Part shown: positions 31,571-56,200 of the stretch, piece after piece | Layout: every line of letters begins with the position of its first letter | Numbering within the stretch: position 1 is the first letter of the stretch | NCBI RefSeq assembly: GCF_900112305.1 | Contig: NZ_FOKT01000004.1 | Span: 62,001-126,000, forward strand | Source of the DNA: Microbulbifer thermotolerans | GTDB lineage: Bacteria; Pseudomonadota; Gammaproteobacteria; Pseudomonadales; Cellvibrionaceae | DNA: 64,000 bases | Reading direction: 5' to 3' | Notes under the pieces: generated by a model | Database searches by the model: none | The model's input: the letters and a program-made list of their open reading frames with translations, nothing else | Told to the model about the DNA's origin: nothing | Program-made: the position numbers and the translations under genes

Positions 31571-33034
31571 ATGAAATACAAAGACCTCCGCGACTTTATC
31601 CAGCTGCTGGAAAAACGCGGCCTTCTCAAGCGCATTCAATACCCCGTAAACCCCAAGTTGGAAATGACGGAAATAGCCGACCGTGTGCTGCGTTCCGGTG
31701 GCCCTGCGTTACTGTTTGAAAACCCGGTAGGTTTCAATATCCCGGTATTGGCCAACCTGTTCGGTACCCCTGAGCGGGTGGCGCTGGGGATGGGCCGCGA
31801 ACGGGTAAGCGAACTGCGAGAGGTGGGGGAGCTGCTCGCATTCTTGAAAGAGCCCCAGCCCCCGGAAAATCTGCGCGATGCCTGGGAGAAACTGCCGGTA
31901 TTCAAGCAGGTGATGAATATGGGCCCGCGGGTAGTAAACAAGGCTCCCTGTCAGCAGGTGGAAATCAGCGGAGGGGGTGTGGACCTGACCAAATTGCCGA
32001 TCCAGACCTGCTGGCCGGGCGATGCGGCGCCACTGGTCACCTGGCCATTGGTGATTACCCGTGGCCCCGAGAAAAAACGCCAGAACCTGGGTATCTACCG
32101 CATGCAGCTACTGGGTCGCAATCGTCTGATTATGCGCTGGCTTTCCCATCGGGGGGGAGCTCAGGATTTCCGCGACTGGTGTAAGCGCCATCCCGGTGAG
32201 CCCTATCCGGTAGCGGTTGCCTTGGGGGCAGATCCCGCCACCATTCTCGGCGCGGTAACACCAGTGCCGGATACCCTGTCGGAATATGCGTTTGCCGGTC
32301 TGCTGAGAAGCGATAAAACTGAAGTGGTCAAGGCCAAATTGAGCGACCTGCAGGTGCCCGCCAGTGCAGAATTCGTATTGGAGGGCTTTATACACCCCGA
32401 TGAGATGGCCGATGAGGGACCTTACGGTGATCACACCGGATACTACAACGAAGTGGATCGCTTCCCCGTATTCACCGTGGAAAAAATCACCCACCGCAAA
32501 GATCCGATCTATCACAGCACCTACACTGGTCGGCCGCCGGATGAGCCGGCGGTACTGGGCGAGGCTCTAAACGAAGTTTTCGTGCCGATATTGCGGAAAC
32601 AATTCCCGGAAATTGTCGACTTCTATCTGCCGCCGGAGGGATGCTCCTACCGTCTCGCGGTAGTGACCATGAAAAAACAGTATCCCGGTCATGCCAAGCG
32701 GGTGATGATGGGAGTTTGGTCCTTTCTTCGACAGTTCATGTATACGAAATTTGTGATCGTTACCGATGATGATGTCAATGCCCGTGATTGGAAGGACGTT
32801 ATCTGGGCCATAACTACCCGTATGGATCCCGCACGGGACACTGTAATGGTGGAAAACACACCCATCGATTACCTCGATTTCGCTTCTCCGGTTTCCGGTC
32901 TTGGTTCCAAGATCGGCTTTGATGCCACAAACAAATGGCAGGGAGAAACCGCCCGGGAGTGGGGCAGACCAATTGAAAGAGATCCCAGAGTGGTTAAAAA
33001 AGTAGATGAAATATGGGCCGAGCTCGGCCTGTAA
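31571..33034 (+). CDS. ubiD: 4-hydroxy-3-polyprenylbenzoate decarboxylase UbiD
   Basis: 487-residue prenylated-FMN-dependent decarboxylase of ubiquinone biosynthesis. Characteristic segments are the N-terminal [44 protein letters not shown], the PFMN-binding middle ([23 protein letters not shown] in pieces), [29 protein letters not shown] and the C-terminal [11 protein letters not shown]. It is co-directional with rho, as in pseudomonads. It is the last core gene before the accessory insert. Confidence 0.97.
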
Positions 33035-33073
33035 AAAGCACCCAAGTTACCCTTCAGCCTTCAACGATTCTCG

Positions 33074-33102
33074 TGTGCACCTTAGCGGATGCGGGGTGCA
33101 CA
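33074..33102 (+). terminator. Hairpin after ubiD
   Basis: TGTGCACC / GGTGCACA perfect 8-bp stem with a 13-base loop, 40 bases after the ubiD stop. There is no T-run, so it may be a Rho-dependent end or a processing signal. Confidence 0.45.
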
Positions 33103-33270
33103 ACTCTCTCCCCCTCTTATCCGCAAAGAATCTAATCCCTCGGGCGTAATCTGTTAAGCGCTCCTGCGAATGTTAAATCAACCTGTATTTCCTCTGTATC
33201 AGAACAATTTATTGTTTTTATATTGTCTTCTAGAAGCCAAATCTGTAATAGCGCATAAATTAAAATAATA

Positions 33271-33302
33271 ATATTGTTCGACAAATATGGCTTTGCTAGC
33301 AT
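33271..33302 (+). promoter_or_regulatory. Candidate GntR operator overlapping the alginate-lyase promoter
   Basis: ATATTGTTCGACAAATAT (33271-33288) is a near-perfect dyad with TTGT-N3-ACAA at its heart. This fits the T-x-GT-N3-AC-x-A pattern typical of FadR-subfamily GntR operators. It overlaps a candidate -35 (TTGTTC, 33274) spaced 17 bases from TAGCAT (33297-33302). The rest of the AT-rich gap 33103-33373 shows nothing else. Confidence 0.5.
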
Positions 33303-33373
33303 GCTGTGGCCCCGCTCGGTCCGTGCGATGGGCGCAACAATAAAACAGATAAATGCGAGATGAGGGAATCACA

Positions 33374-35986
33374 GTGCATATCAAATACCTGCTCGGAGTG
33401 CTGGTATTGCTCTCCTTTCTCCCCGGATGTGGAGGCAACTCCAATAGCGACGCTAAAACTAACTTCAATGGGATCGTATCTACGGAACCCGCCCCAGAAC
33501 CTGATCCCGAACCCGATTCAGAACCCGATCCAGATCCCGAACCCGATCCCGAACCCGATCCCGAAGGTCCAAATTTTGCTCGCGGTAGCCTGGGAGATAA
33601 CGATACCGTTCCAGCAATCCATTGCACGGAGACGGTCGCAAGCATTGGGGCCCTGGAAGATGCTGTCAGTTACGATATGGCACCGGGGACTACTGTATGT
33701 CTCGCCGCGGGTGAATACAGAAATCTTGAGTTGCAATTCGGTGGTGTTGGAAGCCCCGAAGCGCCGATAACCGTCGCCGCCGAGCGTTCAGGTACTGTTA
33801 CTGTAACAGGTGAAGTGAGCGTCAATATGAGCGGGGAATACGTTGTCTTGCAGGGATTGATTTTCAAAGACGGCTATGCGGCCAATAGCGATGTCATTCA
33901 AACCCGCGGCAACGGCAATATACCTTGCAATTACTGCCGGATTACGGAAATTTCCATCATTGATTTCGATGTGGACAGCACGGAATCGAGCAAGTGGATC
34001 AATATTTACGGTTCAAATAATCGCGTGGATCACAGCTGGTTCGCTGGAAAGAATAACCGTGGTGCTTTGCTGGTGGTTGACCGCTGGTTGGACTCAGAAA
34101 ATGGAATGACCGTGGATACCATGGAGCAGGATAGGGCAACAATCGATCATAACTATTTCGGAGATCGCCCTCCTGTCAATGGCAAGGCTTATGCCGACAG
34201 TAGTGACAATGAGTATGAGGCGATACGCTTGGGGACAAGCGATTCTCATACCGGCGATTCTTTCTCCGTGATTGAATACAACTACTTTGAAAGAATTCAG
34301 GGAGAAGCGGAGATTATTTCCAATAAATCTGGAAATAATACTATTCGCAATAATACAGTTCGGGATAGTCATGGATCGATAACAACCCGGCACGGCTCCA
34401 GCGCAACGATCAGCGGTAACTTTATTCTCGGTGACGATCACCCCTTTGCTGGAGGGCTGCGGATTGTCGATGATGGACACACCATCATAAACAACTATAT
34501 TCAGGGTGCTCGCTACCTGGATACCCTTCACCACGGTGGAATTGTCTTGTTGGGAGCCGATGGAAACGATACCAACGGATACCAGCAAGTGGAAAATGTA
34601 TATATTGCGCACAATACCATAGTTGACAGCGTCAACAGTCTCAACGTAGATGGTGGAGGCAAGTCGACAAATCCACGGAATATCTACCTGCACAATAATA
34701 TTATTGCCTCAGGCATTGGTCCGGTTATTGTTCAGGCAGAAGATGGAATGCCAGTGAATTCAGTCATTGGTGGGAATATCTTTTACGGTGGAACATTTTC
34801 CGACAGTGAGCTTCTGTCCTCAGTAGAGGGAATACGTTTTGAGGATGCCAGCCTGGTAGAGGATTCAAAGGGTATTTACCGGCCTGATGGAAGTGTTGAT
34901 TTGTCGGCGGTGGATGGCCTCGAGCGGGGGGACTTTGATGGTGTTGTAAATGATATGGATGGGCAGGTGCGCTTAGGGAATACACTTGCCGGCGCGGACG
35001 ACATATCCACTGATCCAGTGACCAGCGGTTTGTTGAGCGCCGAAGATGTCGGTCCAATCAACTACCGGCCACCAATGAGCCGTGGATTCGTAAAAAAAGT
35101 CGCCATTGTGAATCACGACTTTGATAGTGGGCTGGATGGATGGATCAATAACGGCGCGATACTGACAACAGATGTGGGAGAAGTATTCTCTCGTGGTAGA
35201 AGTGTGAGGTTGGACTCCCCCGCGGCCAGTGTTTCCCGGAGCGTGAGCCTCAATCAGAATACCAATTACACCCTATCAGCCTTTGTAAAGGGGCATGCGA
35301 CTTTACTAGTTGATCTTGGCACAGAAATCTACCGTAGTGACTTGAGTAGTACCGATAAATACAAGTTGTCTACATTGAGCTTCAATTCTGGTACTGCAAA
35401 CAGCGCGCAGATTTTCGCCTTAATCGATGACTATATTGCCGAAGAGGCGGAAATTATTAATGCGGATTTCACAGACGGACAGTATGGTTGGGACGTCTAC
35501 GAGGGCGTGGGAATCGGTCAGGTGCAGGATTCCAGTAACTCCGCCAGCGGTGCCGATGGATCGATTAAATTCAAATACAATGCAGAGGACTCGGGCTCAC
35601 CCAGTGAGCCCCGAATTTCTCAAACTGTGAATGTTGTGGCCTACACGGACTATACGCTGTCAATGTACATCCTTGAGAAGAATGGCAGTGACGCAAAAGT
35701 AAAATTTGGTGTCCTGAGCAGTGATGGATCAACGGTAGTTGCAGAAAAACTATCTGACTACAGCACGCTGTCCGGAGCTCCAAAGGGGGACGACAGCTTT
35801 AGACAGGATTTGATTACATTCAACAGCGGCAACAATACCTCACTGACAATTTTTGCCGAGTATCAAGGAAGTGGCAGTGAAGTTCGGGTGGATGATTTCA
35901 GGCTGACGTATTTAGGCCAGCCGCCGGCCGATACTGTGACTTTGTTTGACAGTTTTAGGCTTGTGTCTCACAAAGGCTCCGAATAA
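33374..35986 (+). CDS. PL6 family alginate lyase, multidomain lipoprotein
   Basis: 870 residues from GTG 33374 (GAGGGAA 6-7 bases upstream; the earlier ATG has no ribosome site). The lipoprotein signal ends in LPGC. An acidic Pro linker of EPDP repeats follows. Then comes a chondroitinase-B-like right-handed beta-helix (about 75-570) whose catalytic pair is K318 (ISNKS) and R339 (TTRHG), the 21-residue spacing seen in PL6 alginate lyases. The C terminus has two similar beta-sandwich modules (NHDFDSGLDGW and NADFTDGQYGW), probably carbohydrate-binding. It likely degrades alginate at the cell surface. Base composition is lower in GC than neighbours, which suggests acquisition. Confidence 0.87.
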   Translation: MHIKYLLGVLVLLSFLPGCGGNSNSDAKTNFNGIVSTEPAPEPDPEPDSEPDPDPEPDPEPDPEGPNFARGSLGDNDTVPAIHCTETVASIGALEDAVSYDMAPGTTVCLAAGEYRNLELQFGGVGSPEAPITVAAERSGTVTVTGEVSVNMSGEYVVLQGLIFKDGYAANSDVIQTRGNGNIPCNYCRITEISIIDFDVDSTESSKWINIYGSNNRVDHSWFAGKNNRGALLVVDRWLDSENGMTVDTMEQDRATIDHNYFGDRPPVNGKAYADSSDNEYEAIRLGTSDSHTGDSFSVIEYNYFERIQGEAEIISNKSGNNTIRNNTVRDSHGSITTRHGSSATISGNFILGDDHPFAGGLRIVDDGHTIINNYIQGARYLDTLHHGGIVLLGADGNDTNGYQQVENVYIAHNTIVDSVNSLNVDGGGKSTNPRNIYLHNNIIASGIGPVIVQAEDGMPVNSVIGGNIFYGGTFSDSELLSSVEGIRFEDASLVEDSKGIYRPDGSVDLSAVDGLERGDFDGVVNDMDGQVRLGNTLAGADDISTDPVTSGLLSAEDVGPINYRPPMSRGFVKKVAIVNHDFDSGLDGWINNGAILTTDVGEVFSRGRSVRLDSPAASVSRSVSLNQNTNYTLSAFVKGHATLLVDLGTEIYRSDLSSTDKYKLSTLSFNSGTANSAQIFALIDDYIAEEAEIINADFTDGQYGWDVYEGVGIGQVQDSSNSASGADGSIKFKYNAEDSGSPSEPRISQTVNVVAYTDYTLSMYILEKNGSDAKVKFGVLSSDGSTVVAEKLSDYSTLSGAPKGDDSFRQDLITFNSGNNTSLTIFAEYQGSGSEVRVDDFRLTYLGQPPADTVTLFDSFRLVSHKGSE

Positions 35987-36030
35987 TTCGGAGATTGGGT
36001 TTTGTACGTTATCAGTACAAAACCCAATCT
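35977..36030 (+). terminator. Double hairpin at the end of the alginate lyase gene
   Basis: CTCCGAA / TTCGGAG (35977-35993) spans the stop codon. It is followed directly by a perfect 16-bp stem AGATTGGGTTTTGTAC (35992-36007) with its complement (36015-36030) around a 7-base loop. The long arm is AT-rich and lacks a separate T-tract. Confidence 0.6.
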
Positions 36031-36070
36031 GATGCTCATAATAAGAAAAGGCTTGCTTCAGGAGGCGGAT

Positions 36071-36160
36071 ATGAAGTTTTTGACAAATGGACAACTGGAT
36101 ATTGTCTGGTTGTGGGTAGGATTGTGGTTGGTGGCCTTTATCCTCGATGTGGTTCTGTAA
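36071..36160 (+). CDS. 29-residue predicted membrane microprotein
   Basis: A 30-codon frame, ATG 36071 to TAA 36160, behind a perfect AGGAGG with 5-base spacing, one of the strongest ribosome sites in the window. The product starts MKFLTNGQLDIV and continues as a Trp/Leu/Val-rich hydrophobic helix with charged residues only at the ends (KF near the start, one Asp near the end), so it should insert in the membrane. It lies between the alginate lyase terminator and the convergent GntR regulator. I recognise no family. Expression is not proven. Confidence 0.55.
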   Translation: MKFLTNGQLDIVWLWVGLWLVAFILDVVL

Positions 36161-36288
36161 CTTTAAGCTAGGTAAGATTTTCCTGGAGCTTGCAAGTTAC
36201 CTATTGGTGGCGTGTCCCAAAAACAACGACAGCGACCGGGTTAATTAATCAGAATTCCCGAAGCTGGCAGAAAATACCGCCGGCACTC

Positions 36289-37014
36289 TTATATTGGTAC
36301 AGATTGCGGTTCGCTGAGACGGTGATTGTGGTTTTCCATCAGCGACATGCTGGCCTGCATCGCACGTACTGGATCTCGGTCCATAATGGCTTCATAAATC
36401 TGGCGGTGTTCCTCGATACATACACCGCCATCCTTGGATGAAAAGCGGATAAACCATTTAAGCATGGTCGCCATTACATTGCCGAAGGGCCTGTAGAAGC
36501 TATTATCGGTGGCGAGGAAAATCAGGTGGTGAAACTGGGTGTCCACTTCGGTCCAGGCTTGTTGATCAAAATCTTTGGCAATGGCTTTCATTTGCTGAAA
36601 AATAGTGGTGAGCTCAGTGCGTTGCTCTTCAGTTGCGCGGACGGCAGCCAGCGCCGTCGCCTGGGGCTCGATGGCGCGACGTAGTTCCAGGAATTGCAGG
36701 TATACATCTTCGGGTGTTTCAACTTCGGTCATCCATTCCAGCAGTTGCGCATCGAGGAAGTTCCAGCGCGTTTTACAGCAAACGCGGGTCCCCACTTTGG
36801 GTTTGGACTCGAGCATGCCTTTGGATTTAAGCAGCTTGATCGCTTCACGGAGAACTGTGCGACTGACGCCGAACTGGGAGCACAGGTACACCTCACCGGG
36901 AATAATGCTTCCTTGAGCCAGGGTTCCGGAAAGTATCTTCTGGGCAATTTCCCGTGCAATCTGGATATTTAGATTTCTGTTAGATTCTGCAATTGCCTGA
37001 AATTGCGTTGGCAT
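36289..37014 (-). CDS. FadR-subfamily GntR transcriptional regulator
   Basis: 241 residues: N-terminal winged helix (about 15-80, with LCSQFGVSRTVLREAIKLLKSKGMLESKPKVGTRV in pieces) and a C-terminal FCD effector domain (about 95-230). The FCD domain keeps metal-ligand-type residues (D/H in EVDTQFHHLIF and HRQIYEAI). NFLDAQLLEWM is typical of regulators of sugar-acid catabolism (UxuR/ExuR/DgoR-like). Placed beside the alginate lyase, it probably responds to an alginate breakdown product; that is inference. It is convergent with the lyase and microprotein. Confidence 0.9.
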   Translation of the reverse strand: MPTQFQAIAESNRNLNIQIAREIAQKILSGTLAQGSIIPGEVYLCSQFGVSRTVLREAIKLLKSKGMLESKPKVGTRVCCKTRWNFLDAQLLEWMTEVETPEDVYLQFLELRRAIEPQATALAAVRATEEQRTELTTIFQQMKAIAKDFDQQAWTEVDTQFHHLIFLATDNSFYRPFGNVMATMLKWFIRFSSKDGGVCIEEHRQIYEAIMDRDPVRAMQASMSLMENHNHRLSEPQSVPI

Positions 37015-37499
37015 TACGGTCTCATGGCTTGCGATATGTTGGTGGGTTAGTGTATCGGCTATCAGCCAATAAGTGAATTTGCCTTTTTCTTCTACCCAGA
37101 GGGAGGGAGAAAATCATAATACTGTAACAGTTTACGGTTTGCTGAGTTTTAGAAACATTGCTGAGTAGCGAATGGCAATTGCGATGCCACGCAGGGAAAG
37201 TGATGTATTGAGAGATGCATCACAATAGTTTGCGGATCGTTATTCATCGTTCGCCCTCCGCAACAGGGTTTTTGGGAACACTGAAGGCGCTGTTTGTTTT
37301 ATTCGCCCGGTTGCAAAGATTTGTTGTGTTACAAAAGCAATGTGGCTAAAGATTTCCCCAGTCTTTATATTCTATAGGTAATTGTTTTCAAATGCTTACT
37401 GGATGATTGTTAAAGGGTTTGGGTGATTACATGCGCGTAGGAAGCGGCCGGACAAGATTCAGGGAATTTAGAATAGGGGCGCAGAGCCCCCATTGGCCA
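37015..37499. other. Gene-free stretch upstream of the GntR regulator
   Basis: 485 bases without a credible coding frame. It contains the regulator's promoter region and a second TTGT-N3-ACAA dyad (TTGTGTTACAA, 37324-37334) similar to the one before the alginate lyase. The dyad GGCT-ATC-AGCC (near 37058) and a terminator of the hydrolase on the minus strand (37476-37490) are the other items seen. Confidence 0.4.
37476..37490 (-). terminator. Terminator of the hydrolase/hem operon
   Basis: On the minus strand, GGGGC-TCTGC-GCCCC is followed by TATTCTAAATT, 9 bases after the hydrolase stop codon. The T-tract is imperfect. Confidence 0.55.
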
Positions 37500-38504
37500 C
37501 TATGATTTTTGTAAAAATTCAAGAAACGCGCGCATATAGCGGTCAAAGGCTTCGTATTGCGGTACGTGGCCGACACCTTCCAGCTCCACTAGAGTGCCAT
37601 TGGGAATGGCGTTGGCGGTTTTCTTACCCAGCTGATCATAACGCCCCAATTTGTCCTTGAGCGCTTGCGGTGCGCGGTCTCTGCCGATGGCGGTTCGATC
37701 GCGGGTTCCGATGATCAGCAAGGTGGGAGCTTTAAGATCGGGGAACTCATAAACGACCGGCTGAGTGAAGATCATATCCGTGGTCAGAGCATCTACCACG
37801 GCAATGGTTTTTGCGTCTGGGCCAATGGTCCATCCCCCCTGGATATCCACCAGTGGGTTGTAGGACGGGCGCCACTTGCCGTCAAAGTAGGCGCGTGTCA
37901 TATAGCGTTTGACGGCGTCCGGTGTCTGAGCCTCCTCCCGTGTTATGGATTTATCGAGAGGAAGATAGGGCACGTAGCGCTTGTAGTCCTCCAGGCCGAT
38001 CGGGTTGATCATAACCAGTTTTTCCACCCGCTCTGGATACATAAGCGTAAAGCGTGTGGCGAGCATACCGCCCATGGAATGGCCGGCGACAGTCACCTTG
38101 TCGGCATCGAGCTGATCGAGTAGTGCGCGGGTGGTGTCGGCGAGGGCGTGAAAGCTGTATTGAAAGTTGAGTGGTTTGCTGGATTTGCCGAAGCCGATCT
38201 GGTCCGGCACTATGAGCCTGTAGCCCGCACTACTCAAGGCGTCGATAGTGTCCTTCCAATAGGCGCCGGAAAAATTTTTGCCGTGTAAAAGCAATACTGT
38301 GCCCTGGGCTTTTTTCCCCGCTGCTGGCGGTATGTCCATGTAGGCCATGGTGAGCGGCTGTTGTTGGGCTTGCAGATCAAACTGTTTGACGGGGTAGGGG
38401 TAAGAGTAGCCGCTCAGCATGGCATCTTGCGGTTGCACCTCGGCGATGGCGCCGGTGGCGAGCAGTGTGCTGCATATCAAAAGCAAAACCGCAGGGAGGC
38501 GCAT
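37500..38504 (-). CDS. Secreted alpha/beta hydrolase
   Basis: 334 residues with a signal peptide (LPAVLLLICSTLLATGAIA). The alpha/beta-hydrolase core has the oxyanion motif LLLHGKNFSG, nucleophile elbow GHSMGG, acid IIGTRDRTA and catalytic histidine GVGHVPQ. It is probably a periplasmic esterase or lipase-like enzyme; substrate unknown. It sits 14 bases after hemY on the same strand, so it may be cotranscribed with the heme genes, though no functional link is known. Confidence 0.88.
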   Translation of the reverse strand: MRLPAVLLLICSTLLATGAIAEVQPQDAMLSGYSYPYPVKQFDLQAQQQPLTMAYMDIPPAAGKKAQGTVLLLHGKNFSGAYWKDTIDALSSAGYRLIVPDQIGFGKSSKPLNFQYSFHALADTTRALLDQLDADKVTVAGHSMGGMLATRFTLMYPERVEKLVMINPIGLEDYKRYVPYLPLDKSITREEAQTPDAVKRYMTRAYFDGKWRPSYNPLVDIQGGWTIGPDAKTIAVVDALTTDMIFTQPVVYEFPDLKAPTLLIIGTRDRTAIGRDRAPQALKDKLGRYDQLGKKTANAIPNGTLVELEGVGHVPQYEAFDRYMRAFLEFLQKS

Positions 38505-38518
38505 ACTTTTCTCCTTGT

Positions 38519-39793
38519 CTATGCGGGGTTGTGATTGTCGAATTTGGTAGTGGATCCCAAGAGCGCGCGCTCTTCACTCGGAAGCGGCAATGAAGGCAGG
38601 TCGCTTACCGCCTGCATCAAGCCTTCTTTGTAGCGTTCGGCGGCCTCATCAGTTTCGCCCAGGGCGTATAGCAGTCGCGCCAGTTCCGCGGAAGTGGCGG
38701 GTTCTGATCTGAGCAATAGGCTTTTTTCAAAGTATTGCCGAGCCTTGCCCCAGAGTTCATTGCGGAGACACAGGCGGCCGATACAGGTGAGCAGGTCGGC
38801 GTTTTCGCCGTATTCCTTGAGCCATCCGTCGGCAACAGTGAGTTGGGTACTGGCATCGGCACCGGTCAGGCAGCCGTACAAGCGGGCCAGCTCCGGTTGC
38901 CATTCGCGGTTGAGCAGCCAGCGCAGGTGCTTTTCCGCTTCTACGTCTTCGCCAACCTGATGAAGTAATCTGGCGTAAAGGCCGCGCAGTTCCATATTGC
39001 GCTGCCAGCGGCCGCTGAGGCTTTGCCACAGTTCGCGCAATTTGGTTTTGTCGCGGCGATCGGCGGCATCTGTAAGCAGGTGTTGGTAAACCTCAAGTTC
39101 TAACTGTTGCAGCTCTTCCTCGCGCATATTGGCGTGTTTTTCAAGCTGGGGCAGCAGCTCCCGCAGACTGTTCCAGTCGCCCAGACGGTAGTAAGCCTGT
39201 TTGAGTAGTTGCAGCAGTGCCGGGTGTTTGGGCTCCACCTGCTTCGCGCGCTCGAGACTGGCAATGCACTGTTCGTAGTGTTTGTCCAACAGTTGCATGC
39301 GCGCTTGGCTGAGAGCGACGGCGAGCCGGGTATCTTCTCCGCTGGCTTCGGCCCGGGCCAGCAGCTCGTTTGCCTCGTCGCGATAACCGAGCTCGAAGGC
39401 ACTGCGTGCGGCGGCCAGATAATTGATCAACGGGGCCTCGGAGCGTGGGGCGCTTTTAAGTAGCTGGCGCCGCGCACGGGCCCAGTTGCCTTCCATAAAT
39501 TCCACCAAACCATTGGTGAGGCGTCGGCGCGCCACTCGCTGGCGGCCAAAGCGGATACGGCTGACGCTACCGCCGACTGCGCGCAGCAGGCTGCGCGCGA
39601 GCCACAGGACGACGAAGAGGGCGAGCACACCCAACATTAGTGCGATGATGGCGACCCAAAGGTTCAACTCTATACGCTTGTCGATACCGCCACCAATGGC
39701 AATCAGCAGATAGCCGGGATAGGTACGGATTGCCTCCACGAGGAAGGCACCGAACAACAGCAGTGCGAGAGCGGCGAACAGGAAACGTTTCAC
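38519..39793 (-). CDS. hemY: HemY, heme biosynthesis-associated TPR membrane protein
   Basis: 424 residues. Two N-terminal membrane helices (about 1-65) bracket a short loop, then TPR-like repeats fill the rest (for example YDGL-type ALLQLLKQAYYRLGDWNSL). This is the proteobacterial HemY_N protein, not protoporphyrinogen oxidase. It interacts with heme-pathway enzymes at the inner membrane. The start overlaps the hemX stop by four bases, the conserved hemC-hemD-hemX-hemY order. Confidence 0.92.
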   Translation of the reverse strand: MKRFLFAALALLLFGAFLVEAIRTYPGYLLIAIGGGIDKRIELNLWVAIIALMLGVLALFVVLWLARSLLRAVGGSVSRIRFGRQRVARRRLTNGLVEFMEGNWARARRQLLKSAPRSEAPLINYLAAARSAFELGYRDEANELLARAEASGEDTRLAVALSQARMQLLDKHYEQCIASLERAKQVEPKHPALLQLLKQAYYRLGDWNSLRELLPQLEKHANMREEELQQLELEVYQHLLTDAADRRDKTKLRELWQSLSGRWQRNMELRGLYARLLHQVGEDVEAEKHLRWLLNREWQPELARLYGCLTGADASTQLTVADGWLKEYGENADLLTCIGRLCLRNELWGKARQYFEKSLLLRSEPATSAELARLLYALGETDEAAERYKEGLMQAVSDLPSLPLPSEERALLGSTTKFDNHNPA

Positions 39794-41076
39794 TGGCTGT
39801 CGCCTCCCGGCACGTCAGTGCTCTGAGAGGTGGTTTTGTGTAACCGTTCGATATAGTCGTGCAGTGCCCGTTGCGAAGCGGCAAGGCTCGGTAGGTCGGC
39901 CTTGATGGTCACTTGGCTGAGTTGCCGCAGCTCCTCCATCAGGGCATCCCGCCGCTTACCGGGAACAGCGTATTCCAACAGCAACTGTCGGTTGCGATTG
40001 AGGGAGTCCCGATACACATTGGTGTCTTCGCGTAGCAGGGCCAGTTCGGCTTGCTCCATATTGAGACGCAGGCTCTGGCGGAAGCGCGCTTCACTTTGCG
40101 GGGAAAGCAATACCGGGTCTATATTGCCATCGCGGATACGCACCGATTCATGCAGGAATTGTGTGAAGCTATCCCAGCCGCGCTGCAAAGGGGATGAATC
40201 CGCGTCGCTTTCGACCTGGGTATCAACGGTGCCCTGGGTGGTGATGTCAAATTCCGGCTGGATATTGACTCTGATCAGCTGATCTTCCAAGGCGCGTAGT
40301 TGTGCATAGAGCCCCTCGCGATCGATGTTCTCCACCAGTTTCAATGCCGTGATGTCATTGGCCAGCTGTTGGCGTACGCCGTAGAGGTCCGGCTGATCGA
40401 GCCGGCGGAGGATTTTGTCCACTTCTTCCAGCAGTCCGAGAGCGGCGCGGCTGTCGCGTTCCAGCAGCAGCCGTTGGTTGGCCAGGCGCAGCAGATAGTC
40501 GGCTTCGGCCAGTTGCCAGTCGCTGCGGTTGACATTGCCCAATTCGCTGAGGCGATTGGCCTGGGAGGTCATTTCCCGTTGTAGGGCCGCCAGTTGCTGT
40601 TGCAGCAGCGCGATGGTGCGACTTTGTTGTTGTACCTGGTTGCGCAAGGCGCTTTCGGCTTGACGCTGTTCCTGCGCGGCGGTATCAGCGTCTCTAGAGG
40701 GAGCCGGTGCTTCCGGTGCCTGTGCACCGGAGGGTGGCTGCGGTGTTGCCGGCTGCCGGGGTTGTCCGGCGGGTTGCGGGGCCTGGACACTTTCTGTAGG
40801 AGAGGCGGAATCTTGCGTCAAAGGGGTGAGGCGGAGGTGGCTGCTTACGTGGCTCCGCAGTTGTGGCCAGCTGAGCCAGCCCCAGGCGCCGAGGCCGCCG
40901 ATGGCGGCGAACACAAACAGCCACAGCCAGCCCTTTCCGCCCTTGGCCCGCCTTTTTCCTTTGCGGTCTCCTGTTTGCGTGGATTTTTCCTGCGTGGCTT
41001 TGGCGAAGTTACTTTTTTTCTCCCCTTCAGGTGGGGTGGATGCCTGAGCGGTGTCTTTAGATGTTTCGTCAGTCAT
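39790..41076 (-). CDS. hemX: HemX, uroporphyrinogen-III C-methyltransferase-like membrane protein
   Basis: 428 residues. A charged N-terminal segment precedes a single membrane helix (about 50-68, LWLFVFAAIGGLGAWGW) and a Pro/Gln-rich linker, then a long coiled coil (about 135-175) and the HemX domain (LAEADYLLRLANQRLLLERD). No SAM-methyltransferase motifs are present despite the family name. It probably scaffolds heme synthesis with HemY. The 119 bases between it and hemD may hold a promoter. Confidence 0.92.
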   Translation of the reverse strand: MTDETSKDTAQASTPPEGEKKSNFAKATQEKSTQTGDRKGKRRAKGGKGWLWLFVFAAIGGLGAWGWLSWPQLRSHVSSHLRLTPLTQDSASPTESVQAPQPAGQPRQPATPQPPSGAQAPEAPAPSRDADTAAQEQRQAESALRNQVQQQSRTIALLQQQLAALQREMTSQANRLSELGNVNRSDWQLAEADYLLRLANQRLLLERDSRAALGLLEEVDKILRRLDQPDLYGVRQQLANDITALKLVENIDREGLYAQLRALEDQLIRVNIQPEFDITTQGTVDTQVESDADSSPLQRGWDSFTQFLHESVRIRDGNIDPVLLSPQSEARFRQSLRLNMEQAELALLREDTNVYRDSLNRNRQLLLEYAVPGKRRDALMEELRQLSQVTIKADLPSLAASQRALHDYIERLHKTTSQSTDVPGGDSQ

Positions 41077-46222: not shown

Positions 46223-46618
46223 ATGGAGCTCAACTGGGAAAGCCTGACGGTGATGGTGATCGACGACAGCAAGACGATTCGTCGCACCGCGGAAACTCTG
46301 TTGCAAAAAGCGGGTTGTACGGTCGTTACCGCAACAGACGGATTCGATGCGCTGGCCAAAATCGCCGACTCCCGCCCGGATATCATCTTTGTCGATATCA
46401 TGATGCCACGCCTGGATGGCTATCAGACATGTGCATTGATCAAGAATAACAGTGAATTTCGCTCCACGCCGGTGGTGATGCTTTCGAGTAAGGATGGCTT
46501 GTTTGACAAAGCCAAGGGGCGTGTTGTCGGCTGTGATCAGTATTTAACCAAGCCGTTCAGTAAAAGTGAGTTGCTCGGGGCTATTTCCGCGCATGCCAAG
46601 CCGCATCATGCAGCTTAA
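46223..46618 (+). CDS. pilG: Twitching motility response regulator PilG
   Basis: 131-residue stand-alone CheY-like receiver. Acidic pocket VIDDSK, phosphoacceptor D58 (FVDIMMPRLDG), T/S in VVMLSSKDG and K in YLTKPFSKSELL. In the Chp system PilG is phosphorylated by ChpA and promotes pilus extension and cAMP production via FimL/CyaB. It heads the pil-chp operon, divergent from gshB; 237 bases separate it from pilH, so pilH may have its own promoter. Confidence 0.94.
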   Translation: MELNWESLTVMVIDDSKTIRRTAETLLQKAGCTVVTATDGFDALAKIADSRPDIIFVDIMMPRLDGYQTCALIKNNSEFRSTPVVMLSSKDGLFDKAKGRVVGCDQYLTKPFSKSELLGAISAHAKPHHAA

Positions 46619-53200: not shown

Positions 53201-56200
53201 ACAAGTCGCTGTTGGCTCCGGTTGCCGAAGAGCTGCAAGTACTGGAAGAAGCCGCCAGTCGTGCACAACTACCGACATTAGCCGAATTGTCGCGGCTACT
53301 GCTGAATGTCTATCGCAAGGTGATCGATGGCCGCCTTGAGGTGGAGCCCGCGCTTTGGTCCGCCCTGGAGGAGGGGCATAGTGAGCTGCTAGATCTCGTC
53401 GATGCTGTAGCGGCGGCCCAGGACCTGCCTGAGGTCAGCGAAGCGGTTGGGGAGGCACTGCGTTATCTCGCTCAAGGAGACAATGTATCGTCCGAAGAGG
53501 ACGATTACGACTTGGCTGAGCTGGGCATCGACAGCACCGATATTCCCGTTGCCCAGGCAGAAGAAGAGGCCCCCGTCGCAAGTGTCGCAGCTAGTGACGA
53601 CAGCGGCGACTGGGGGCTCGATGGACTGCTAGCGGCTGAAGCGGACCACATGCCCGCCACCGAAGATGAGCAACGGACAACGCCAGCGGCGGAAGAAAAC
53701 GCTCTTGTACCGCCTGTTGCGGAAGCAGTCGAGCCTGCTGCGGTTATTACTACCGAAGAAGTGGGTGGTCTGGATACGGATGGCCGCGACGAGGCCGGCG
53801 TATTCGGTGACCTGAGCTTTGATGATTTGTTGATTGCCGATGGGCAGTCGTCTGCCCCCAGTGCAGTTGAAGGGAGTGAAACGCCCCTCGAGGAGCAGGT
53901 CACTCCGGCTGCGCCGATGGCGGAGGAACCGGCGAGTACTGTCGCCGAGGTGCGACAGCCAGTGGCAGATACGTCGCCGTCGGACGACGAACTGCAAAAG
54001 CTGCTCGCGGATATTGATCCCGACGTCGTCGAAGTGTTTTTGGAAGAAGCCGGCGACCTGGTCGATGAGCTGGAGGAACTGATCCAGGAGTGGGAGCAGG
54101 CGCCAGCTGACCAAAGCCAGGCCGAAGCGTTGAAGCGGGTACTGCACACCTTCAAGGGCGGTGCGCGTATGGCCGGTGTCATGGGACTGGGTGAAGTGGC
54201 GCACCGCTTCGAGACAGTTATTGAGGGCATGCAGGGCAAAGCAGAGCCTTCAATGGAATTCTTTGCCGATGCTCACGCCATCTATGACCGCATTGCAGCC
54301 GGTGTGGAAACCGTGCGTGCCTGGATGGGGGGTGAACAGTTGGACGCATTTGCCCAGTTGCTCAGCACTACCTGGGCCGATGCGCAAATGGCGGAGGACA
54401 CGGCCCCGGCGGGTTATCAAGAGACACCCGAGGTGACCCCCGTATTGGATGAACCGAGGCAGGCCGCCGAAATAACGGATACAACCCCGGAACCGCCGGC
54501 TGAGCAGCCTCCGCAGGCCGTGCCGGCGCCCAGGGATGAACCACCGAGCAATGTGCTGCCGTTTATCCGCAAGAAAGCGGGTGTCAGCGAACGCGAATCC
54601 GGCGCTGGGGTGAGGAACCAGCCGCAAGAGATGGTGCGGGTGGCTGCGGAGCTCTTGGAGGAACTGGTTAACCTGGCGGGTGAAACCTCCATTTCGCGCA
54701 GCCGGCTGGAAGAGCAGATCAGCGAGTTTGGCCTGGCTCTGGATGAAATGGATTCCACCCTGCAACGCTTGAACGAACAGTTGCGGCGCCTGGATATGGA
54801 AACCGAGGCGCAAATCTTGTTCCGCCAGGAGCAGTTGGCTGAGCAGGACGATGATTTCGATCCGTTGGAGATGGACCGCTACTCATCCATTCAGCAACTG
54901 TCCCGCTCTCTTCTCGAATCCACATCGGACTTGATGGAGCTGCGCGCGACGCTTGGCAACAAAGCGCGAGATACCGAGACATTGTTGTTGCAGCAGTCCC
55001 GGGTGAATACGGAGCTGCAGGAGGGACTCATGCGCAGCCGCATGGTGCCCTTCTCTCGCCTGGTGCCGCGCCTGCGTCGCATTGTGCGACAAGTCAGTGC
55101 CGAGCTTGGTAAGCAGGTTGATCTGGTGTTCTCCAACGTCGAGGGTGAGCTGGACAGATCCATGCTCGAACGCATGGTGGCTCCGCTCGAGCATATGTTG
55201 CGCAACGCGGTGGATCACGGGATTGAAGCGCCGGAGGTACGCGCCGCAGCGGGCAAGCCGGAGCGCGGTCGTATCAGTGTGGCGCTGGAGCGTGAGGGCA
55301 GTGAGGTAGTGCTCTCTATCAGCGACGACGGCGCTGGTATCAATTTGATGAAAGTCCGGGAGAAGGCCATAGAGAGAGGTCTGATGCGCCCGGATGCGGA
55401 GTTGTCCAATAACGAGATCCTGCAGTTTATTCTTCAGGCGGGCTTTAGTACCGCGGACAAAGTTACGCAGATCTCCGGACGTGGCGTTGGTATGGACGTG
55501 GTGTCGGCGGAAATCAAACAGATCGGCGGCACCGTGCATATCAACTCCCAGGCGGGCCAGGGCACGGAGTTTATTGTCCGATTGCCGTTTACGGTGTCGG
55601 TGAACCGCGCCTTGATGGTCAAGATCGGCGAAGATCTTTTCGCTCTGCCGTTGAATACCATTGAAGGGATAGTGCGGCTCAGTCCCTTTGAGTTGGAACA
55701 CTACTACCGCACTGAGGGTGCACACTTCGAATACGCTGGTGAGCCCTATGAGGTGAGCTATTTCGGTACTCTGCTGAAGTCAGGGGCCCGTCCGAAGCTC
55801 GACGGGCGGGACATGCAGCTGCCGGTGTTGTTGGTGCGCTCCGAGGGCCACGCCATGGCACTGCAGGTCGATGCCATCATGGGGAGTCGGGAAATCGTGG
55901 TGAAAAGCCTGGGCCCCCAATTTGCCGGTGTGCAAGGGGTTTCCGGTGCAACGGTAACCGGTGACGGTACCGTGGTGGTGATTCTCGATCCCCACGCCCT
56001 GCTTCGCCGCCAGGCGGCGCAGTTGGCGCGGCCCGATGTGGCGAAGCTGGAATCAAAACCCCAGGTGCTCCCGGAGCCGGAGGAGCGGCAGCTTAAGGTC
56101 ATGGTAGTGGACGACTCCGTGACGGTGCGCAAAGTGACTTCCCGCTTCCTGGAGCGTGAAGGCTATCTGGTTACCACTGCCAAAGATGGTCAGGACGCGG

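Follow-up and report, generated by a model that had tools for sequence, protein, structure and literature searches.

A predicted 29-residue membrane microprotein encoded between a PL6 alginate lyase and a GntR-family regulator in three Microbulbifer species

The window analysed here is a 64 kb stretch of the Microbulbifer thermotolerans genome. At positions 36071-36160 of its forward strand lies a small gene for a 29-residue product (MKFLTNGQLDIVWLWVGLWLVAFILDVVL), recognised as a microprotein gene by its orthologues, its coding conservation and the one hydrophobic segment of its product. Genes so short usually escape annotation. A ribosome-binding site, AGGAGG, is found at 36060-36065 on the same strand, 5 nt before the ATG at 36071. 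A prior sequence-only reading of the window had described a perfect AGGAGG at ideal spacing ahead of a 29-residue frame, and its sequence, coordinates and 5-nt spacer all proved exact. It had also held the site to be strong for a random short frame, and the counts agree. Only one ATG frame of 20-60 aa in the 64 kb follows AGGAGG, namely the microprotein frame, and this is also the sole frame of that size with a 19-residue Kyte-Doolittle mean (KD19) of at least 1.6 after AGGAGG, AGGAG or GGAGG. The chance expectation for such hydrophobic frames, taken from first-order Markov simulations of windows with the same dinucleotide make-up, is 0.01 per 64 kb for AGGAGG and 0.11 for AGGAG/GGAGG. An alternative in-frame ATG at 36032 would give a 42 aa product. 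In the uncultured Microbulbifer isolate 4-994-1-3Z (hereafter 4-994), the mechanical open reading frame, taken from the first ATG, GTG or TTG to follow the preceding stop, coincides exactly with the 29-aa frame, and ATG 36071 is therefore the likely start.

Upstream of the small gene, at 33353-35986 on the forward strand, is a PL6 alginate lyase and predicted lipoprotein (Pfam Chondroitinas_B, 4.9e-69; lipobox LPGCGG). Its best PDB match is the alginate lyase AlyGC, and besides the fold domain it carries the AlyGC motifs SNKSG and RHG, present as IISNKSG and TTRHGSS. We take these motifs to hold the catalytic Lys and Arg, a view with which the R241A mutant structure (entry 5gkq) agrees. Since the orthologous frames begin at an aligned TTG, the lyase is predicted to start probably at GTG 33374, not at ATG 33353. 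Among 48 genomes of the genus, full-length lyase orthologues (75-76% identical) are found, outside the window's own genome, in Microbulbifer sp. HZ11 and 4-994 only. The HZ11 copy (L064:5230-7860) is the second PL6-type lyase of that genome, for which the published genome description names gene0081 as the one PL6 gene (PMC11678492); it is apparently a PL6 locus separate from gene0081. Convergent with the lyase and the small gene, at 36289-37014 on the reverse strand, is a GntR-family regulator with an FCD domain, a likely repressor by prediction. Within NCBIfam it is nearest to LldR, PdhR, GlcC and NanR, but it falls far below their cut-offs. HZ11 has an orthologue with 76% identity, and 4-994 also has one. 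An alginate lyase and a sugar-acid type regulator had both been proposed from the sequence; the PL6 assignment with its AlyGC match bears out the former and the GntR/FCD family matches the latter. Further out, the locus is bordered by rho and ubiD and, in the opposite direction, by an alpha/beta hydrolase gene, hemY, hemX and hemD.

HZ11 and 4-994 each encode a 29-residue orthologue of the microprotein (MNLWKSGQLDILWLWGGMLLTSYAWDCFQ and MNLWKRGELDILWVWGALLLATSAWEAFQ, respectively) free of indels and, as in the window, placed between the PL6 lyase and the convergent GntR/FCD regulator. Residues M1, G7, L9, D10, I11, W13, W15 and L20 are invariant in all three sequences, position 17 is always Gly or Ala, an acid (Asp or Glu) occupies position 26 throughout, and the core motif G[QE]LDI[LV]W[LV]W is kept. 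The ribosome sites (AGGAGG, AGGAG and GGGAG) share one register, and the start is kept as well. The microprotein gene aligns at 7.9 to 13.8 SD over shuffles, against -0.8 to 5.0 for both flanking spacers, where the value of 5.0 comes from a terminator common to HZ11 and 4-994. The BLOSUM sum is 217 in frame, compared with 107 and 67 for the two alternative frames, and 1 of 5000 column shuffles reached 217. Between HZ11 and 4-994 the gene has a dN of 0.23 and a dS of 2.06, which are rough values with dS so high on 28 codons; pairs with the window copy are milder (dN/dS of 0.41/0.73 and 0.51/0.86). All of these conservation statistics rest on three sequences. Taken together, the conserved frame, the hardly alignable spacers and a dN of 0.23 against a dS of 2.1 for HZ11 and 4-994 indicate that the gene is selected as a protein. 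The small gene also changes faster than the lyase, since HZ11 and 4-994 share 19/29 residues of the microprotein and 86% of the lyase.

That the microprotein gene is genuine, in its frame and in its membership of the cassette, is thus well supported on sequence comparison. The sequence-only reading had argued for a real gene, had looked to relatives for synonymous-biased changes and had stated that it would be refuted if the frame or the ribosome site were not conserved there. The 29 codons, the start and a purine-rich ribosome site are kept in both other cassette genomes while the neighbouring spacers are not, and the synonymous bias is seen for HZ11 versus 4-994. Its expectation of conservation across Microbulbifer held in part, namely for the genomes with the lyase cassette (3 of the 48 at species level) and not for the rest. 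It knew no named family with this sequence, and in our searches neither the three microproteins nor their profile matched Pfam, NCBIfam or PDB at E ≤10.

Searches for further copies returned the same three loci. A single-sequence search of 97 relatives gave one credible match, that in 4-994 (E 0.009), with the others at E 0.03-0.95; one of the latter, in genome G072, sits in a longer frame and was rejected. The three-sequence profile was run against samples of the order (391) and the class (369) and against the family in full (144), and found only the three true loci. Its six best weak or partial matches were set aside as chance, being short and in frames unrelated to any lyase or regulator, most of them within or overlapped by longer frames. 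A DNA scan for the core motif across approximately 85,000 species gave, besides the window, only HZ11 and 4-994 as real occurrences, a match in a Magasanikbacteria MAG being an unrelated 18-codon frame. No match was found in viral contigs or in plasmids. On these searches, the microprotein is lineage-restricted to three Microbulbifer species and belongs to no family of the libraries searched.

The product is probably a single-span inner-membrane peptide, with insertion predicted. In all three sequences a single hydrophobic stretch begins at residue 11 and covers residues 11-25 or 11-29. Octanol-scale sums over 15 residues are all negative, at -14.95 for the window copy (residues 11-25) and -10.3 and -9.5 for the orthologues. 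The KD19 is 2.47 for the window copy, and those of the orthologues (0.86 and 1.23) lie under the usual membrane threshold, so that the case for their insertion rests on Trp/Leu content; both are Trp-rich. In size, in its one hydrophobic segment and in being conserved as a protein, the product is consistent with a single-span bacterial membrane microprotein (<~50 aa). Lys and Arg are confined to its N-terminus and an acidic residue lies near its C-terminus, from which the N-terminus is predicted to be inside. D10, W13, [GA]17 and L20 (spacing 3-4-3) share one face of the helix, suggesting packing against another membrane helix.

With regard to transcription, a putative operator of the FadR-subfamily GntR type (ATATTGTTCGACAAATA, with the core TTGT-N3-ACAA) is located at 33271-33287 on the forward strand and is conserved before the lyase, where alignment of the three genomes shows it within the conserved block AATAATATTGTYCRACAAATA. 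The core fits the FadR-subfamily consensus, TNGTNNNACNA (PMC2230225). The regulator's GntR helix-turn-helix and FCD domain, together with this candidate operator, would place it in that subfamily. Each genome of the three has a single perfect copy of the 17-bp motif ATATTGTNNNACAAATA, which precedes the lyase every time, and the regulator may therefore have a single target. No wider regulon was found for the motif at 0 mismatches, and at 2 mismatches the counts equalled those of a reversed-pattern control. The operator overlaps TTGTTC, a possible -35 that is followed 17 nt on by an extended -10 (TGCTAGCAT), both hexamers having been read by eye; such an overlap fits repression by the GntR protein. 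As a separate observation, further TTGT-N3-ACAA sites occur in the window at 46499-46509 and 55082-55092, making four with those at 33274 and 37324, versus 0.6 by chance.

No promoter-like site was found on the forward strand at 35800-36071. In HZ11 and 4-994, a strong intrinsic terminator begins within ~10-20 bases of the microprotein stop codon, whereas the window shows no classic terminator after the gene. Given the operator before the lyase, the absence of a promoter-like site just ahead of the small gene and the terminators behind it in HZ11 and 4-994, the small gene would be the last of the lyase operon. Between the two genes, at 35992-36030 on the forward strand, there is a perfect 16-bp inverted repeat (AGATTGGGTTTTGTAC / GTACAAAACCCAATCT) with no U-run after it, and its hairpin scores z -6.8 against shuffles. 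Hairpins occupy this gap in the relatives too, strong ones in 4-994 and one that is weaker in HZ11, but the sequence of the repeat is not conserved. Stabilisation of the lyase mRNA, or partial termination, are possible roles of the hairpin in the window.

These features can be joined into one explanation, in which the small gene encodes a co-expressed, single-span membrane microprotein of a GntR-repressed lyase operon that adjusts a larger membrane protein. We consider the case for this explanation to be evenly balanced. The operon would read operator, PL6 lipoprotein lyase, 29-aa protein, with co-transcription predicted. The convergent GntR/FCD regulator is predicted to repress it and would presumably be released by a uronate breakdown product. 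Through the conserved face D10-W13-[GA]17-L20, and W15 in addition, the helix would pack against the larger protein within the membrane. The partner would most likely be a transporter or sensor in alginate-oligomer uptake, adjusted when the lyase is made, although we infer both partner and role. According to PMC11539335, known small membrane proteins are mostly regulators of transporters and sensors. Against the explanation, the cassette has no transporter or sensor gene inside it, and the hairpins could uncouple the lyase from the small gene.

A different target would be the lyase lipoprotein itself, with the microprotein acting on its export, sorting or envelope retention. The lyase, with its lipobox, and the regulator are indeed the only fixed partners of the small gene. 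However, the stretch read directly behind five full-length lyase homologues of other genera (L170-L174, 50-62% identical and also lipoprotein-like) contains neither the small gene nor gntR. Neither was found behind two shorter Microbulbifer paralogues (L066, L067), and all seven are followed by other genes or a terminator. The lyase therefore does not generally need the small gene, and we regard a direct action upon it as rather unlikely.

It is improbable that the gene encodes a free-standing small hydrophobic type I toxin controlled by an antisense RNA, or a membrane-stress peptide. A length of ~29 aa, hydrophobicity and a strong ribosome site do resemble type I toxins, and read-through from gntR in the window could run antisense to the small gene. 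However, a scan of the window, albeit crude, found no promoter-like (sigma-70-like) site on the reverse strand over or near the gene, and a strong bidirectional terminator lies between it and gntR in HZ11 and 4-994. Its fixed place in a catabolic cassette and its conserved acidic residues also speak against a toxin, as does the absence of any Rfam match at 35700-36500, which likewise sets aside a known RNA element at the locus.

With hairpins on one side and the terminator on the other, the frame occupies the 3′ end of the lyase transcript, and it could act in cis if ribosomes there protected or terminated the lyase mRNA and the peptide was a by-product. We think this very improbable, as it is amino acids (G7, L9, D10, I11, W13, W15 and L20) and not merely an open frame that have been kept, and dS is high. 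A leader peptide was ruled out by the position of the gene downstream, not upstream, of the lyase. Finally, the shortness of the frame and the few sequences might suggest a chance opening, or a conserved RNA or DNA element merely resembling coding sequence, to which we give next to no credence in view of codon-level conservation without indels in three genomes, flanks that are poorly alignable or not alignable, and no Rfam family.

For the preferred explanation, a modulator of a larger membrane protein, the closest parallels are single-span regulatory membrane proteins of enterobacteria such as AcrZ, MgtS and KdpF, which share the range of ~30-50 aa and the one hydrophobic helix (PMC7267776, PMC11539335). 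A strong ribosome site and a gene encoded near, or co-expressed with, its target are further likenesses. In contrast to these proteins, the microprotein has no sequence similarity in Pfam, NCBIfam or PDB, is coupled to a lyase and a GntR regulator, and is confined to three Microbulbifer species. The PL6 genes for alginate use that accompany GntR regulators in marine bacteria, for instance the alginate polysaccharide-utilisation locus of HZ11 (PMC11678492), are alike in pairing a PL6 lyase with a nearby GntR-type regulator, whereas the present cassette is apparently a separate PL6 locus and has the additional 29-aa gene. With protein-level selection, a portable cassette and a predicted single-target repressor, the microprotein offers a handy case for the study of membrane microproteins in polysaccharide use.

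The portability is seen from the chromosomal places of the lyase-microprotein-gntR trio. In the window genome it sits between ubiD and hemY, whereas in HZ11 and 4-994 its neighbours are a MOSC-domain gene and, at the opposite end, genes of the questin-oxidase-like and the branched-chain/urea-type ABC transporter kinds. The ubiD genes of HZ11 and 4-994 are elsewhere, and the ubiD side of those loci is without lyase or gntR. By ubiD identity, the window species is nearer to genomes G041 and G034 than to HZ11 or 4-994. Among the 48 genus genomes the small gene occurs in the same two others as the lyase orthologue and in no more. The trio has thus moved, whether it was transferred or rearranged, without losing the small gene, and it therefore behaves as a cassette. 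The narrow distribution (3/48 genus genomes, and absent behind the lyases of other genera) makes the microprotein gene a candidate for a recently arisen gene. A bolder form of the explanation is possible and is advanced tentatively. In it, an orphan microprotein born in the genus accompanies the lyase-GntR cassette on its moves and acts as a switch on an envelope sensor or on a transporter of alginate oligomers, so that a polysaccharide-utilisation cassette would bring along a membrane-embedded modulator of its own. The ubiD-hemY interval (31571-41076 in the window) varies in content and length among Microbulbifer genomes, and for this reason has the look of a variable site at which this genome acquired the lyase cassette.
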